Positions 12,693 through 18,222 of a stretch of 32,221 nucleotides of DNA are shown here, in pieces; the first letter of the stretch is position 1; the number at the start of each line of letters is the position of its first letter. This DNA is from Microbacterium sp. GTDB taxonomy: Bacteria; Actinomycetota; Actinomycetes; Actinomycetales; Microbacteriaceae. The stretch spans positions 1 to 32,221 of the forward strand of contig JAPSIX010000006.1 in the NCBI GenBank assembly GCA_031178475.1. Reading direction: 5' to 3'. A program made the position numbers and the translations under genes. Under the pieces are notes generated by a model, which saw only the letters and a list, made by a program, of their open reading frames with translations, was not told the origin of the DNA and ran no database searches.

Positions 12693-12720
12693 TGACGCCC
12701 GAGCCCGTGCCCGGGCGTCA
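12693..12720. terminator. Bidirectional hairpin ending DUF7455 and racemase genes
   Basis: Arms TGACGCCCG (12693-12701) and CGGGCGTCA (12712-12720) are perfect complements around a 10-base loop. The right arm includes the stop codon of the minus-strand racemase-like gene. Confidence 0.7.
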
Positions 12721-13770
12721 GCTGTATCTGCGCGGCACCAGTGGCGAGATCCGTGTGAGGATCTCCTCCCCCACGGTGTCGATGCGCTCTGCGAGTGCGG
12801 TGGCGTCGCGCTCGCCCCACTCGCCCGCTCCGAACAACCGCACGGAGTCGCCGATGCGCGCACCCGGCCAGGCCCGCACCGAGCTGACGGCGGACTCGAT
12901 CCGCACCACCTCCCTGGCACCTGCCCGGGTACCTGCGGGCATCCCGGCGAGCGTGGACGGGATGCCGTGCAGCCAGCCCGCCCCGATCAGCACCTCGTCA
13001 TCGCTCACGTCCACCACGCGCGCCTCGAGTGTCGCGATCGGCAGCGTACCCGGGATCACCGGTCCGTCGGCGGAGCGGATGCCGTAGCAGAAGGCTCCGA
13101 CGCGGCTGACCGTGCCGCGCAGTTCAGGCCGCCACCACGATGCGGCCGACGCGGTGAGGTGGAGTGCGGAGGGACGGCATCCGGCGTCCCTCACGACGTC
13201 GACGGCGGTGGCGAAGGCACGCGCGGCTTCGTCGTCTTCGGCGTCGCTGGCCTCGGCGAGATGGCTCCACACCCCCGCGAGTTCGATCAGACCGTCGCGC
13301 TCGGCGGCGCCGGCCTCGGCCACGGCGTCCGCCCACTCCTCCGGACGAAATCCGTTTCGATGCAGGCCGGTGTCGATCTTCAGGTGCACGCGGGCGGCGA
13401 CGTGCGCCGCCGACGCGGCTGCGACGACCCGCCGGAGATATGGTGCGGTGCCCACACCGAGATCGATATCGGCGTCGATCGCGGCGTGCACCTCATCGGG
13501 GTCAGACGTCGCCCAGGCGAACACGCGCGGACCGTCTCCGACGCGCGCGCGGATGCGCAGCGATGTCGGCACGTCGTATCCGCCATACATGGCGACGGGC
13601 TCCGGAGCCCCCAGAGAGGCGTCGACCATCTCCTCCAGGCCGTGTCCGTACGCGTCGTCCTTCATCACGAGCATGAGCTGTGATGGTGCGATGCGCTCCT
13701 GCACGGCCGCGATGTTGCACGCCAGCTGTGCGCGGGAGATCCGCAGTACGGGAGTGCTCAGTGCGTCCAT
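12718..13770 (-). CDS. Alanine-racemase-like protein with PLP lysine but no catalytic tyrosine segment
   Basis: 350 residues, fold type III PLP enzyme. The N-terminal barrel is complete: Lys37 in VMKDDAYGHG (PLP Schiff base), Lys131 and Arg138 in HLKIDTGLHRNGF, His170 in GVWSHLAEA, and SRVGAFCYGI at the barrel end. In the C-terminal domain the stretch that normally holds GxxVSYGxTY, including the second catalytic base (Tyr265 in the Geobacillus enzyme), is missing: VVDVSDDE runs straight into VLIGAGWLHGIPS. The VGRxxMD stretch is also replaced. Alone it should not be a normal alanine racemase. ATG 13770 follows AAGGCGG with about 9 nt spacing and overlaps the end of the upstream racemase-like gene by 13 bases. 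It is third in the operon with the ATP-grasp ligase. See the findings for the heterodimer idea. Confidence 0.88.
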   Translation of the reverse strand: MDALSTPVLRISRAQLACNIAAVQERIAPSQLMLVMKDDAYGHGLEEMVDASLGAPEPVAMYGGYDVPTSLRIRARVGDGPRVFAWATSDPDEVHAAIDADIDLGVGTAPYLRRVVAAASAAHVAARVHLKIDTGLHRNGFRPEEWADAVAEAGAAERDGLIELAGVWSHLAEASDAEDDEAARAFATAVDVVRDAGCRPSALHLTASAASWWRPELRGTVSRVGAFCYGIRSADGPVIPGTLPIATLEARVVDVSDDEVLIGAGWLHGIPSTLAGMPAGTRAGAREVVRIESAVSSVRAWPGARIGDSVRLFGAGEWGERDATALAERIDTVGEEILTRISPLVPRRYS

Positions 13771-14444
13771 TCGCGCACCGCCTTCAGCCCTGCCACCGTG
13801 ACGAGCTCGGCGACGTCCAGTCCGGTGAGCCGGGACCACATCGCGAGAGCGTCGCGCGCGGGTCCGTCACCGCCGAAATAGACGACGTCGCCGCCCTCGC
13901 GCACCGCCGCGTCACCGATGTCGACCACGCAGACATCCATGGCGACGCGCCCGACGATCGGATGAAGTTCCCCCGCCGCCTCCACCTGGGCGCGATTGCC
14001 CAGTGCCCGCACGACCCCCTGGGCGTACCCGCCGGTGACGAGCGCGACGGTCGTGTCTGCGACCGCACGGTGGGTGTAACCGTACGACACGGCCTCACCG
14101 GCGCGCAGCGGCTTCGTCGACAAGATCCGTCCGATCAGGCTCATGGCCGGCTCGAGGCCGGATCCGGGGAGCCCGAACAACTGCGCCGGCAGGATGTCGG
14201 GCCGGCCGACACCGCGCGCCGGGACTCCGTCGCGGGCGAGCTCTGGCACCACCTGCTCGTCGACCAGAACCTCACCCGCCCCCGCGTCCAGGACGATGCG
14301 CGACACCTCCCGCACGCCGTGCCCGTAGGCGTCCGCGCGGAGATCGGCGACACGACCTCCGGCGGCGATGGCGGCGGAGGCGTTGTCGCGCAGGGCGCGT
14401 GCCGACACCACGGCACGCGGCAGGCTCCTGGAGCCCGGGGTCAT
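13758..14444 (-). CDS. Short alanine-racemase-like protein with catalytic tyrosine but no PLP lysine
   Basis: 228 residues, against about 370 for alanine racemase. It begins with the first barrel strands (PRAVVSARALRDN), but the lysine is replaced: Arg36 in DLRADAYGHG. About 140 residues of barrel strands 3-7 are absent; after PELARDGV it resumes at RPDILPAQLFGLPGS, the barrel end. The C-terminal domain is complete, with Tyr121 in GEAVSYGYTHRA, TGGYAQGVVRAL, and Met169-Asp170 in VGRVAMD. It therefore carries exactly the elements missing from the next gene. ATG 14444 overlaps the ATP-grasp stop in an ATGA arrangement. There is no frameshift or stop that would make it a pseudogene, and codon use is like its neighbours. 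Confidence 0.88.
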   Translation of the reverse strand: MTPGSRSLPRAVVSARALRDNASAAIAAGGRVADLRADAYGHGVREVSRIVLDAGAGEVLVDEQVVPELARDGVPARGVGRPDILPAQLFGLPGSGLEPAMSLIGRILSTKPLRAGEAVSYGYTHRAVADTTVALVTGGYAQGVVRALGNRAQVEAAGELHPIVGRVAMDVCVVDIGDAAVREGGDVVYFGGDGPARDALAMWSRLTGLDVAELVTVAGLKAVREWTH

Positions 14445-15472
14445 CGGCGGCTGGCCTCGATCACGGGTCGGTGCTTCGCCCTGGAGCCGGTGCGGATGCC
14501 GGTGGCACTCACCCTGGTCTCGTAGAGCCCTGGCGTCCAGTTGCCCTCGATCAGCACCGGGCGGTCGGGACCGACCGCGACATCCCACCCGACGTACGGC
14601 ACGGTGGGCACCTCGCGGGCGGCGCGGTCGACCAGAGCGATGACCTCGTCCCACAGCGGCACCCGGAAGTCGACGATCGAGGCGCCGGAGTCGGGGTGCG
14701 CCTCGTAGCGACTGAGGTGCTTTCCGGTGTGGCCGGGGCCGAAGGACCGGCCGTCATCGTCGATCATCGTGAAGAACCCACCCCAGGTGAACTGGTCGCT
14801 CACGGCGCCTCGCCCGAACTTCTGCGCCGCCATCAGCACGTGCACGCGCGAGCCGTCGAAGAACGTGGCGACGCGGGTCGTGTTGACGGTGCCTGCACAG
14901 TACTCCGCGAGGTACGGATGCTGCACGATGGGCTCCTCGATGAGCCGCTCCCCGCGCTCGATCAGCTCCGCGCGGAGAGCGTCGAGGTCGGAGTGCTCGG
15001 CGGTGTCGTAGCGGAACACGCCCTTGCCCTCGCGACCGACCGGCTTCTTGGCGATGATCACCGGGTGCCGCTCCACGAAGGAGCGGAAATCGTCGAGCGT
15101 GCTGTCCTCGAGGTCGATCCACTCCCGGCCGAGGTACTCGGCGAAGCGCTTGTTGAACGACAGCTTGTTCTCGAACACCAGGACGTCGGTGCGGTCGTTC
15201 AGTGCGGCCGCGAGGTGATGCTGGATGAGAGACGTCATGAACGTCTTGCGCTCACGCCGCGTGAGCAGCGCGAAGTCGGCCTCGTAGTAGTCGATGTAGG
15301 CGGTGTCATGAAAGGCCGCCCAGACGAGCATGTCCACGAAGATGCGCGGCGCCCACTTGCCCTGCTCCTGCGCGATCTGCGTCGCGAACGCCCAGACGCG
15401 GCCGGCATCGAACGAGGTCGCTCGCTTCAGGAAGTACTTCACGCGCGCCATCAGGGCGACGTCTCGGGACAC
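14441..15472 (-). CDS. Sugar-transfer-associated ATP-grasp family ligase, copy 1
   Basis: 343 residues from GTG 15472. It resembles the ATP-grasp family PF14397, annotated as sugar-transfer associated. Recognisable parts: VIIAKKPVGREGKGVF (nucleotide-binding lysine and glycine-rich loop), EEPIVQHPYL, AGTVNTTRVATF, the GGFFTMIDDDG stretch, and VPYVGWDVAV...LIEGNW (metal-binding Glu and Asn). It should form an acyl phosphate and then an amide or similar bond; acceptor unknown. GTG 15472 is preferred because AAAGG lies 7 nt upstream, TACCAT (15515-15510) is a plausible -10, and the length then equals copy 2; ATG 15511 is the upstream alternative. It heads a coupled operon with the two racemase-like genes. 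Confidence 0.85.
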   Translation of the reverse strand: MSRDVALMARVKYFLKRATSFDAGRVWAFATQIAQEQGKWAPRIFVDMLVWAAFHDTAYIDYYEADFALLTRRERKTFMTSLIQHHLAAALNDRTDVLVFENKLSFNKRFAEYLGREWIDLEDSTLDDFRSFVERHPVIIAKKPVGREGKGVFRYDTAEHSDLDALRAELIERGERLIEEPIVQHPYLAEYCAGTVNTTRVATFFDGSRVHVLMAAQKFGRGAVSDQFTWGGFFTMIDDDGRSFGPGHTGKHLSRYEAHPDSGASIVDFRVPLWDEVIALVDRAAREVPTVPYVGWDVAVGPDRPVLIEGNWTPGLYETRVSATGIRTGSRAKHRPVIEASRR

Positions 15473-15554
15473 GGGCGAACCTTTCGACGCGGACAGATCA
15501 GAACGTCCCATGGTAGTCGCTCCGCCGCCGCGTTCCCCGTGAACAGGGGTCTGT

Positions 15555-15560
15555 TAGCCT
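15555..15560 (+). promoter_or_regulatory. Putative -10 element for leaderless ATP-grasp copy 2
   Basis: TAGCCT, then GGGTCG, then the GTG start at 15567. No ribosome site is present, so a leaderless message is the simplest reading. The element lies in the 94-base gap between the two divergent ATP-grasp genes. Confidence 0.5.
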
Positions 15561-15566
15561 GGGTCG

Positions 15567-16598
15567 GTGGATCAGAAGCGTTTGCGCATCCGGTACCTGT
15601 TCGACCGGGCACGGCGCCTCAATCCGACCCAGCTGATCGAGCTCGCCCGCCAGGTGAAGCGGGTCTCGAAAGCCCCGCTGCCGGTCATCATCGGCGACAT
15701 GCTGTGGTGCTCGGTGCGCTACGAGATGGGCTTTCGCGACTACGTGGTGTGGGACATCCGCATCCTGAAGGCCCGTGAGCGTGCCACCTGGATGACGCAT
15801 CCCAAGGCGTTCCGCCTGAACAAGACGCTGAACGCGCCGGAGTCGAAGACCATGCTCGGCGACAAGATGCGCTTCCTCACGGACTTCGCCGACCTGACCC
15901 GCCGCGACTGGATCGACGCGTCGACCGCGTCGGACGAGGATCTTCGCGCTTTCCTCGCGAAGCACCCCCGCGTGATCGCGAAGCCCGCGGCCGGCGAAGG
16001 GGGCGCGGGTATCGCGGTCTACGACGCGGCCGAGGTCGACGACGTCTCCGCCTGGCACGCCGAGCTGATCGAACGGGATCAGACGCTGCTCGAGCAGGTG
16101 CTCGAGCAGCACGACGACCTCAACGCGGTCTATCCCGACAGCGTGAACACCGTGCGCATGATCACTTACCGCGACCCCCAGGGCGAGCTGCACGTCATCG
16201 CCTCGGTGCTGCGCATCGGCAACGGCGCGGTCATCGACAACTTCGCCTCCGGTGGCATGTTCACCATGCTCGACGACGAGGGCGTGGCCCTGTACCCCGC
16301 TGTCGACAAGCAGTCGAACATCTACCGACAGCACCCGGTGACGGGCACGACCATCCAGGGCATTCGGGTGCCGTTCTACGACCAGGTGGTGGAGATGGTC
16401 GCCGAGGCGTCCAAGCGCCTGCCGTCGGTGCCCTATGTCGGCTGGGACATCGCCATCACTCCCGACGGTCCCGCGCTGATCGAGGCGAACCACAATTCGA
16501 GCGTGTTCCAGATGAAGCCGTCGGCGTCTGGCATCCGCACCGGCCTGCTGCACCGTTACCGCGAGGCGATCGGCGCGGACGTCGTCGACAAGAGGTAA
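15567..16598 (+). CDS. Sugar-transfer-associated ATP-grasp family ligase, copy 2
   Basis: 343 residues, paralogous to the divergent copy 1. Shared landmarks: DMLxW near residue 48, VIAKPAAGEGGAGIAVYD for nucleotide binding, EQVLEQHDDL, DSVNTVRMITY, GGMFTMLDDEG, VPYVGWDIAI...LIEANHN, and SGIRTG near the end. The shared SGIRTG tail and VNTxR motif mark one subfamily with different acceptor-side residues (for example NHNSSVFQMKPS here against NWTPGLYETRVS in copy 1), so the two may use different substrates. It converges on murJ. Homologues are annotated as hypothetical or as hexapeptide/sugar-transfer proteins; no function is established to my knowledge. Confidence 0.88.
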   Translation: MDQKRLRIRYLFDRARRLNPTQLIELARQVKRVSKAPLPVIIGDMLWCSVRYEMGFRDYVVWDIRILKARERATWMTHPKAFRLNKTLNAPESKTMLGDKMRFLTDFADLTRRDWIDASTASDEDLRAFLAKHPRVIAKPAAGEGGAGIAVYDAAEVDDVSAWHAELIERDQTLLEQVLEQHDDLNAVYPDSVNTVRMITYRDPQGELHVIASVLRIGNGAVIDNFASGGMFTMLDDEGVALYPAVDKQSNIYRQHPVTGTTIQGIRVPFYDQVVEMVAEASKRLPSVPYVGWDIAITPDGPALIEANHNSSVFQMKPSASGIRTGLLHRYREAIGADVVDKR

Positions 16599-16608
16599 GG
16601 CCGACGCG

Positions 16609-16634
16609 CAGCATCCTCGGTACGAGGGACGCTG
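16609..16634. terminator. Imperfect hairpin between ATP-grasp copy 2 and murJ
   Basis: CAGC(A)TCCTCG and CGAGG(GAC)GCTG pair with small mismatches around GTA, in the 40-base gap between convergent stops. It is a plausible but not strong terminator. Confidence 0.4.
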
Positions 16635-16638
16635 GGGA

Positions 16639-18222
16639 TCAGCCCCGGCGGCGGATGGTGCGCAGCGCCGTCTTCAGCTCCGGCACGCGGAACGTCGCGA
16701 GCAGCGCGACGTAGACGCCGGCGGAGACGAGCGCGACGAGCGCGGCGCCGACGGCGCCCCACAGCCTCTCCTGCATCATCCAGCCGTCCATGCCGCCGGT
16801 GAGCAGGAAGACCCCGTAGCCCGCGAGTCCGGCCGGCACCGCCATCAGAGCGAAGCGCAACAGCGCGCGCCAGGTCGGTCCGAGGCCGAGCGGGCCCAGC
16901 TTGCGCCGGAGAAGGATGGTCGCGACGATCGTCTGGATGATGCCGGATGCCGACTGCGCGAGCGCCACGGCGGCGGCACGGAACTCGAGTGGGGTAGTGA
17001 AGGCGACCGCGAGGGTCAGGAGGAGCACGAGCGCGGCCTGCACGAGCGTGAAGACGAACGGTGTGCGCGCGTCGCCGTACGCGTAGAACGTGCGCTGCAC
17101 GATGAACAGCACGGCCATCGGCAGCAGGCTCACCAGGAAAGCGAGCAGCACGGGTGCGATCGCGGCGGCCGTCTGCGGGCTGTCGCTGAACAGACGCGAG
17201 ACCGGCAGCACGGCCGCAGCGACGGCGGCCGTCGCCACGACGATGAACAGGCCGAGGATACGGATCGACTGGGCGACGTCCGCACGCAGATCCTCGTGGC
17301 GCTCTGCGGCGGCGTGCTCGCTGATGCGGGTGAAGTAGGGCGTCCCGATGGCGAGGATGATGAGCGAGTAGGGCACCATGTACACGAGCCACGCCGTCTG
17401 GGACGCGAAGACCGACGCGTGCTCGCCCGACGACGGCGTCACCACGCGCGACTGGACGATGCCGACCAGCTGACCGAGCAGCGCCGTGAGGAACGTCCAC
17501 GTCGCAAGCCGCCCCATATGGCCGAGACCCATCCCGCGCCAGCGGAAGTCCAGCCGCAGCGGGATACCCGCGCGCCGCCAGAACAGCGCCAGGATGACCG
17601 TCTGCGCGACGACGCCGAAGGTCGCCGTGCCGGCGAGCGTCATCACCATCGCCGTATCCCAGCCGGCGAGCGAGCTGCGGCTCTGGCCGAACAGCACGAT
17701 GAACAGGGCGAAGCCCGCGATGGACACGATGTTGTTGACGATGGGCGCCCAGGCGTAAGGCGTGAAGATCTTGCGGGCGTTGAGGATCTCGCCGAGCAGG
17801 GCGAACATGCCGTAGAAGAACAGCTGCGGGATGCACCAGTAGGCGAAGTGCGTGGCGAGGGCGTGCTGCTCAGGACCGAAATCCGCGAACAAGCTGATCA
17901 GGAGCGGCGCGCAGAGCGTGGCCACCAGCGTGACACCCGCGAGGAGCAGGGATCCGAGCGTCAACAGCTTCGCGAGGAAGTCGTGCCCCTGGTCGCGCTG
18001 GGCGCTGGCCCGCACGACCTGGGGAACGATCACGCCGGTCAGCACGCCGGCAGAGATCACCTGGTAGATGTTGTTCGGCAGCTGATTCGCGACGGCGAAC
18101 GCGTCGGAGGCCTGGCCGATCGTGTTGATCGCCGCGACGAGCACGATCGACCGCAACAGCCCGCTGAGGCGGGACGCGAGAGTCCCCGCCGCGATCGTGG
18201 CGCTGGCGCGACCGAGTCCCAT
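16639..18222 (-). CDS. murJ: Lipid II flippase MurJ (MviN family)
   Basis: 527 residues, polytopic, with about 14 hydrophobic segments as expected for the MOP-superfamily flippase that moves lipid II across the membrane. Landmarks: the N-terminal ASRLSGLLRSIVLVAAINT, SDAFAVANQLPNNIYQVISAGVL, VPQVVRA, GEILNARKIF, and YSLIILAIGTPYFTRISEHAA. The long C-terminal pseudokinase extension known from mycobacterial MviN is absent. It starts 48 bases after the CofE-like gene on the same strand, so rpoD, the CofE-like gene and murJ are probably co-transcribed. Its position beside ligase and racemase genes points to cell-wall work. Confidence 0.93.
   Translation of the reverse strand: MGLGRASATIAAGTLASRLSGLLRSIVLVAAINTIGQASDAFAVANQLPNNIYQVISAGVLTGVIVPQVVRASAQRDQGHDFLAKLLTLGSLLLAGVTLVATLCAPLLISLFADFGPEQHALATHFAYWCIPQLFFYGMFALLGEILNARKIFTPYAWAPIVNNIVSIAGFALFIVLFGQSRSSLAGWDTAMVMTLAGTATFGVVAQTVILALFWRRAGIPLRLDFRWRGMGLGHMGRLATWTFLTALLGQLVGIVQSRVVTPSSGEHASVFASQTAWLVYMVPYSLIILAIGTPYFTRISEHAAAERHEDLRADVAQSIRILGLFIVVATAAVAAAVLPVSRLFSDSPQTAAAIAPVLLAFLVSLLPMAVLFIVQRTFYAYGDARTPFVFTLVQAALVLLLTLAVAFTTPLEFRAAAVALAQSASGIIQTIVATILLRRKLGPLGLGPTWRALLRFALMAVPAGLAGYGVFLLTGGMDGWMMQERLWGAVGAALVALVSAGVYVALLATFRVPELKTALRTIRRRG

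Follow-up and report, generated by a model that had tools for sequence, protein, structure and literature searches.

A pair of overlapping racemase-like genes in Microbacterium probably encodes the unlike subunits of a heterodimeric PLP racemase

The window analysed here, the whole 32,221-nucleotide stretch of contig JAPSIX010000006.1 in a Microbacterium sp. assembly (GCA_031178475.1), carries two overlapping racemase-like genes on its reverse strand. The longer, at 12718..13770, encodes a protein of 350 aa (P0001, here the long subunit), and the shorter, at 13758..14444, one of 228 aa (P0002, the short subunit). Both assignments combine an open reading frame with a Pfam domain (PF01168 for the long, PF00842 for the short), residue conservation and an AlphaFold2 model. 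A first-pass annotation of this DNA had noted a 13-base overlap, and the frame coordinates bear it out: the end of the short gene and the start of the long gene share positions 13758..13770 of the reverse strand, an arrangement that suggests translational coupling of the two. Directly upstream of the short gene, a sugar-transfer-associated ATP-grasp gene (PF14397; 14441..15511, reverse strand) overlaps the short-gene start with its own end by 4 bases (14441-14444); we regard it as a possible partner only.

Pfam assigns PF01168 to positions 1-219 of the long protein (6.8e-39), together with a weak and incomplete PF00842 match at 37-127 (6.5e-6; 26.2 bits against a cut-off of 25). In the short protein PF00842 spans positions 1-120 (3.5e-26), and PF01168 leaves a sub-threshold trace at 5-53 (E 0.093). 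The 168-bit cut-off of the NCBIfam model TIGR00492 (alr) is reached by neither P0001 (93.4 bits) nor P0002 (100 bits), so that the enzyme would escape annotation based on that model. The solved structures nearest by sequence to both proteins are alanine and related amino-acid racemases. Among at least 80 named loci, the closest relatives of the pair come from Microbacterium, with up to 59% identity; a weak PF01168 match also occurs elsewhere in the window's own genome (L002).

Alanine racemase is a textbook homodimer and drug target. Its residues are numbered here by what we take to be the scheme of the G. stearothermophilus enzyme. Passages of PMC3245724 on the S. aureus enzyme describe Lys39 as the carrier of PLP, which is held by Tyr43, Ser204, Arg219 and Tyr354 of the first monomer. 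In the same passages the catalytic tyrosine is Tyr265', the amide of Met312' contacts the carboxylate of the substrate, both Tyr284' and Arg290' sit along the entry, and Arg309 is printed without the mark of the second monomer; Lys129, Arg136 and His166 as used here appear there as Lys131, Arg138 and His168 (PMC3245724).

The long subunit possesses Lys37 (equivalent to Lys39; codon 13660..13662, reverse strand), Tyr41, Lys131, Arg138, His170, Ser208 and Arg223 within a complete PLP barrel, and its C-terminal domain is without the Tyr265 segment and without GRxxMD. The short subunit possesses Tyr121 (Tyr265, the presumed catalytic tyrosine in trans; codon 14082..14084, reverse strand), Tyr140 (284), Arg146 (290), Arg166 (309) and Met169-Asp170 (312-313, on the substrate-carboxylate side in trans; codons 13935..13940, reverse strand). 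Its barrel is mostly deleted with the start kept, and Arg36 stands where the PLP lysine would be. The first-pass annotation had named Lys37, Arg138 and His170 in the 350-residue protein, and Tyr121, Met169-Asp170 and an arginine in place of the lysine at 36 in the 228-residue protein; all of them were found where it had put them.

A set of related pairs was assembled from protein searches of 249 Microbacteriaceae genomes, in many of which short and long genes adjoin, from a scan of the named loci (mostly complete racemases) and from fetched regions. After one of the two rows for G225 had been dropped, along with L072, whose contig equals that of G184 in length, the 81 long and 81 short rows came down to 79 distinct pairs, no two longs of which are more than 95% identical. 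These comprise 69 pairs from 68 Microbacteriaceae genomes (two of them in G225) plus 10 named loci. Among the latter, L080 belongs to a MAG labelled Cellulomonadaceae; the pair may thus occur outside Microbacteriaceae, or the label is wrong. A row cut by a contig end (L_G112) was kept; G113, G038 and G213 were seen in part or in lists; and fusions, tandem copies, second pairs and G124, with its long at a contig end, stand outside the 79. Contig 9 of G225 carries two short-long pairs, both on one strand, in a stretch of under 8 kb (L161, about 9.2-17.0 kb).

An alignment of 66 complete racemases served to locate the residue columns through their motifs. K39, Y43, K129, R136, H166, S204, R219 and G221 are present in 79/79 longs. 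The shorts have Tyr265, R290 and M312 in 79/79, R309 in 76/79 and H166 in 0/79; their Y284 column holds Tyr in 69 and Phe in 10, and their D313 column Asp in 70 and Asn in 9. A lysine or tyrosine restored in relatives, which the first-pass annotation had named as counter-evidence, was looked for among these pairs: the PLP lysine occurs in 0/79 shorts and the Tyr265 segment in 0/79 longs. Every long therefore has the barrel residues of the alanine racemase fold (PLP lysine, Tyr43, Arg136, His166, Ser204, Arg219), every short has those of its C-terminal domain (Tyr265, Arg290, Met312), and no chain of any of the 79 pairs combines the PLP lysine with the trans tyrosine as a homodimer subunit would. 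Consistent with this, the invariant columns in 23-row profiles include cis residues for the longs and trans residues for the shorts.

The complementary active-site losses first proposed for the two proteins thus hold for the sorting of Lys39 and Tyr265, but they are not total. Some trans residues are left in the longs, with Asp in the D313 column of 53/79, Tyr in the Y284 column of 21/79, Arg in the R290 column of 7/79, and Met in the M312 column of one of the 79 (G104). The longs' R309 column depends on the alignment, reading as a gap in 77 and Pro in 4 of 81 rows, or as Arg in 11/79 with the window included. Tyr354, a cis residue, is Tyr in 45/79 longs, 23/79 shorts and 45/66 complete racemases. 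Four shorts have Arg at R136 and four at R219, in columns that are poorly aligned. Across 79 distinct pairs, the division of residues between the two proteins is real and not a product of chance.

The Asn found at Asp313 in nine shorts (G044, G191 and G076 among them) also occurs in the complete first tandem copies of Curtobacterium and G150. Titles of structures of D-cycloserine-resistant Alr from M. tuberculosis give the same change as D322N.

Short proteins range from about 197 to 383 aa, with approximate starts. A dead barrel is largely kept in 12/79 (more than 110 barrel columns filled), and some shorts have hardly anything besides the C-terminal domain. When starts were picked by script, the two genes overlap by exactly 4 bases in 31/45 pairs and to any extent in 40/45. 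Divergence of short and long is correlated over the 79 pairs (r 0.78; r 0.5 was reached in 0/1000 shuffles), though such in-step divergence would also follow from shared ancestry alone.

Next, we asked how the two genes are distributed. Among 59 genomes of the window's genus, with pair-type and complete genes separated by score and position, the short and long profiles pick out an identical set of 47, in every one of which (47/47) the pair is adjacent, on one strand and with the short first. Pair-type matches are lacking in the other 12: of these, 11 have their matches in frames carrying both halves, and the twelfth, G575 (81% complete), has a single partial frame. One gene without the other, which had been put forward as a finding that would speak against an obligate partnership, was seen in 0/59 genomes, 47 having both and 12 neither. 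The two genes are always together, as an obligate heterodimer would have them. Outside Microbacteriaceae, ordinary Alr was what we found among the matches listed from an order-wide search of 297 genomes, of which 30 loci were read. Four near-complete genomes of code g50 (G049, G119, G174, G223) gave, in protein searches, no match to the long protein and weak matches to the short; G049 does match with a profile, so its racemases are divergent. A further locus, L243 (G057 contig 1), is a 316-aa frame with only the N-terminal part of a racemase and one TGA inside the match.

Both window proteins are confidently modelled, as single chains, with alanine-racemase folds. AlphaFold2 gave the long subunit a pLDDT of 95.5 and a pTM of 0.92, and the short subunit 93.0 and 0.88, from alignments of window and named-locus sequences; these included complete racemases, and the folds are therefore partly expected. 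Alignment to structurally known alanine racemases, a check suggested at the outset, succeeded for both: the long model matches S. coelicolor Alr (5fag_B) over 348 residues (Z 42.2, rmsd 2.1), and the short model matches M. tuberculosis Alr (6scz_A) over 221/228 residues from residue 6 onwards (Z 20.8, rmsd 2.3). Broad-specificity racemases (4dyj, 4beu) and lysine racemase (4dza) share this fold, and both models align with them. The long model ranks actinobacterial Alr first, whereas the short model matches 4dza (Z 20.0) about as well as it does the best Alr (Z 20.8).

These data bear on whether the two frames are decaying pseudogenes of a duplicated alr. Decay would account for two proteins that both fall below the NCBIfam alr cut-off and are missing parts of the family domains. 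However, active-site columns that stay invariant over 79 distinct pairs, genes that overlap, co-occurrence in 47/47 genomes and confident models are not what decay would leave, and with a probability that we put close to nil, pseudogene decay is ruled out by the conservation across the 79 pairs.

In some genomes the two parts are joined in a single frame, and in both orders. Short-then-long fusion frames are found in G243 (766 aa) and G234 (832 aa), and long-then-short frames in G136 (629 aa), G073 (796 aa), G188 (647 aa) and G234 (671 aa); these sizes are open-frame lengths, so the proteins may be shorter. The G243 fusion consists of a dead racemase with a barrel followed by a long, and the linker of the 832-aa frame of G234 is rich in Ala, Ser and Pro. 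Four genomes of code g78 (G077, G140, G192, G238) carry a second pair in the order long-short, with a 4-base overlap in three and 11 bases between the genes in the fourth. Residues are divided in these second pairs as in the others, with one exception, the R309 column, where the longs have Arg and one short has Thr. Natural fusions tie the short to the long and thereby lend support, if indirect, to a physical complex.

We then considered whether the split or fused forms would be catalytic. D-Ala is required for peptidoglycan. In six genomes that are 97-99% complete (G136, G234, G077, G140, G192, G238), all Ala_racemase_C matches lie in a split pair or a fusion. PF01168 agrees, its further hits in these six being weaker (at most 66 bits) and located in frames that carry no Ala_racemase_C match, and so does a complete-Alr profile for five of the six, having been run without G136. 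TIGR01121 (D-amino-acid transaminase) exceeded its cut-off in 0/8 genomes, the six included, and in 1/14 control genomes. Six genomes that need D-Ala and show no complete Alr suggest that the split or fused enzyme works there; it is very probably catalytic in those six, with another source of D-Ala being possible. This argument holds for codes g78 and g74, not for the window's genus.

Among 70 scanned genomes with a pair or fusion (G136 is not one of them), 62 contain a full-length match to complete Alr, and in these the pair need not be catalytic. The remaining eight are G000, G077, G140, G238, G073, G192, G188 and G234. G000 is the window's own genome, a 77% complete assembly in which complete Alr was not found; given that completeness, an assembly gap is the likely cause. 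G073 and G188 carry a complete, distant racemase (L237 and L238, respectively) and were for that reason not counted among the genomes without complete Alr. L237 and L238 stand in genomes whose other racemases are split or fused, and by their motifs they look like broad-specificity racemases.

The origin of the pair was examined with barrel trees, one of 83 rows and a more careful one of 61 rows that includes 23 of the 79 longs. In these trees the pair longs and the complete second copies of tandem racemases form one clade (99/97), and the complete second copies fall in two places among the longs. A single clade of degenerate longs was rejected (AU p 0.0025, 61 rows), indicating that loss of the trans residues happened two or more times or was reversed. 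The longs of the g78 second pairs and the g74 fusions are placed among ordinary Alr (98/91); splits therefore exist in that lineage too, which makes two gene lineages. In a C-domain tree of 133 columns, few for such a tree, the shorts of the g74 fusions lie inside the pair shorts (97). We also considered the complete tandem copies (Curtobacterium L071 and L073, Herbiconiux L077, G040, G150 and G166) as ancestors of short and long. They were rejected in that role, as in the barrel trees the first copies join ordinary Alr and the second copies join the longs, making the second copy a complete second racemase, not the short.

Cumulatively, residue complementarity, co-occurrence, gene coupling, fusions in both orders, two lineages and genomes with only split or fused forms point to a heterodimer. 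Judged by sequence, the two genes probably encode different subunits of a fold-III PLP racemase that arose from the homodimeric alanine racemase and became an obligate heterodimer. In this enzyme the long subunit would bind PLP on Lys37 inside its barrel and supply the cis residues. The short subunit would be a racemase that has lost its own activity and now consists mainly of its C-terminal domain. It would stand in for the second monomer and contribute, in trans, Tyr121 as the other catalytic base, Met169-Asp170 next to the substrate carboxylate, and also Arg146 and Arg166. One active site per dimer would be built instead of two. Physical association and catalysis are what we infer from these patterns, above all for the window's own pair.

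A different role for the short subunit would be that of a prozyme-like regulator, acting on a complete Alr or on the long and donating no residues. Dead paralogues that activate a partner are known, as portions of PMC5201418 describe for the AdoMetDC prozyme of T. brucei, and most scanned genomes with the pair also contain a complete Alr on which a regulator might act. However, a regulator need not keep Tyr265, Arg290, Arg309 and Met312 (76-79 of 79) while its PLP site is lost; the longs are without a Tyr265 of their own; and the fusions join the short to the long. We therefore consider regulation improbable. The T. brucei system does resemble the pair in coupling a catalytic subunit to a catalytically dead paralogue, yet the enzyme is unrelated and, according to PMC5201418, its activation works by relieving autoinhibition; in the pair, by contrast, the dead paralogue would donate catalytic residues.

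The heterodimer can be set beside two further known systems. It shares with homodimeric Alr/DadX (PF01168 + PF00842; PDB 5fac, 6scz, 1sft) the fold, the cofactor site, the cis and trans residues and, as the passages of PMC3245724 have it, an active site formed from two chains. Those enzymes are made of identical complete chains with two sites per dimer; here, by contrast, the cis and trans sets are mostly on different chains, so that only one site should form. The pair should then work like alanine racemase, to judge from its residues, but without the complete chain of that family. The second system is the heteromeric serine palmitoyltransferase, in which an active subunit is paired with one that lacks the lysine. 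It resembles the pair as a PLP enzyme with a lysine-less subunit and differs in being of fold type I as opposed to fold III here. In the portion of the open-access literature covered, we found no description of heteromeric or paralogous racemases, or of such racemases in Microbacteriaceae.

The substrate may be Ala or a D-diamino acid of the peptidoglycan bridge, and two readings fit the heterodimer. By the first, the pair is a second alanine racemase whose split arose by drift, a duplicated homodimer having decayed with its substrate unchanged. This is conceivable, if doubtful. G077, G140, G192, G238, G136 and G234 have only split or fused forms, one of which presumably makes their D-Ala, and the placement of the degenerate longs, which fail to form a single clade (AU p 0.0025) and have complete copies among them, is what repeated decay would produce. 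On the other hand, the complete Alr match in 62/70 pair or fusion genomes suggests a separate job for the pair, and its absence from 12/59 genomes of the genus makes it either dispensable or linked to a variable trait.

Type-B peptidoglycan is a trait of Microbacteriaceae. The second reading, which we likewise hold only tentatively, is that the pair makes the D-Orn, D-Dab or D-Lys of the type-B cross-bridge, together with neighbouring ligases (MurT/GatD or ATP-grasp). In the window, two ATP-grasp genes (PF14397) and MurJ lie upstream of the pair at 14441-18222, a neighbourhood that points to the cell wall. We examined 75 loci, 69 with a pair or fusion and 6 with complete tandem copies. MurT and GatD are near 42/75 and ATP-grasp is near 20/75, and the two are never found together (Fisher p 7e-10, a value that is descriptive only because the loci are related). 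Parts of PMC10757982 describe Microbacterium walls with D-Orn, L-Lys or Dab by strain, and D-Orn versus L-Lys as varying even within clades; the pair is likewise patchy (47/59). In other bacteria MurT/GatD amidates the D-Glu of peptidoglycan precursors, according to the sources in the parts covered. From the neighbourhood alone, a D-diamino-acid racemase for type-B peptidoglycan is an attractive assignment.

Several observations weaken this link to the neighbours. The loci belong to a syntenic block with rpoD (67/75 loci) and parE (66/75), so the neighbours may simply be inherited. An ATP-grasp homologue is present in 12/12 genomes of the genus without the pair and in 37/47 with it (in G559 weakly), and hence missing in 10/47. 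Of 36 pair genomes in the genus whose match is strong, 35 have the homologue next to the pair; in 32/35 it lies on the opposite strand, which makes the three overlapping genes of the window an exception. ATP-grasp as an obligate partner was thus not supported, being also found where the pair is absent. Near the pair, 39/75 loci also contain an F420-0:gamma-glutamyl-ligase-like protein (PF01996), which lies within 4.5 kb in 35 of them (L070, for example).

A broader proposal is that Microbacteriaceae repeatedly turned a homodimeric PLP racemase into an obligate heterodimer or a single-chain pseudo-dimer with one site, the two partners having shed opposite halves of the catalytic set, mostly as a D-diamino-acid racemase for type-B cross-bridges and in some members replacing alanine racemase. 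Taken as a whole this is speculative, and we think it rather unlikely to hold in every part. What the family does offer is a natural series from a symmetric to an asymmetric enzyme, consisting of complete second copies, near-full shorts with a dead barrel, shorts like a C-terminal domain, and fusions in both orders, and this series extends over at least two gene lineages. Should the substrate prove to be a D-diamino acid, it would become possible to test directly where type-B peptidoglycan obtains that residue.
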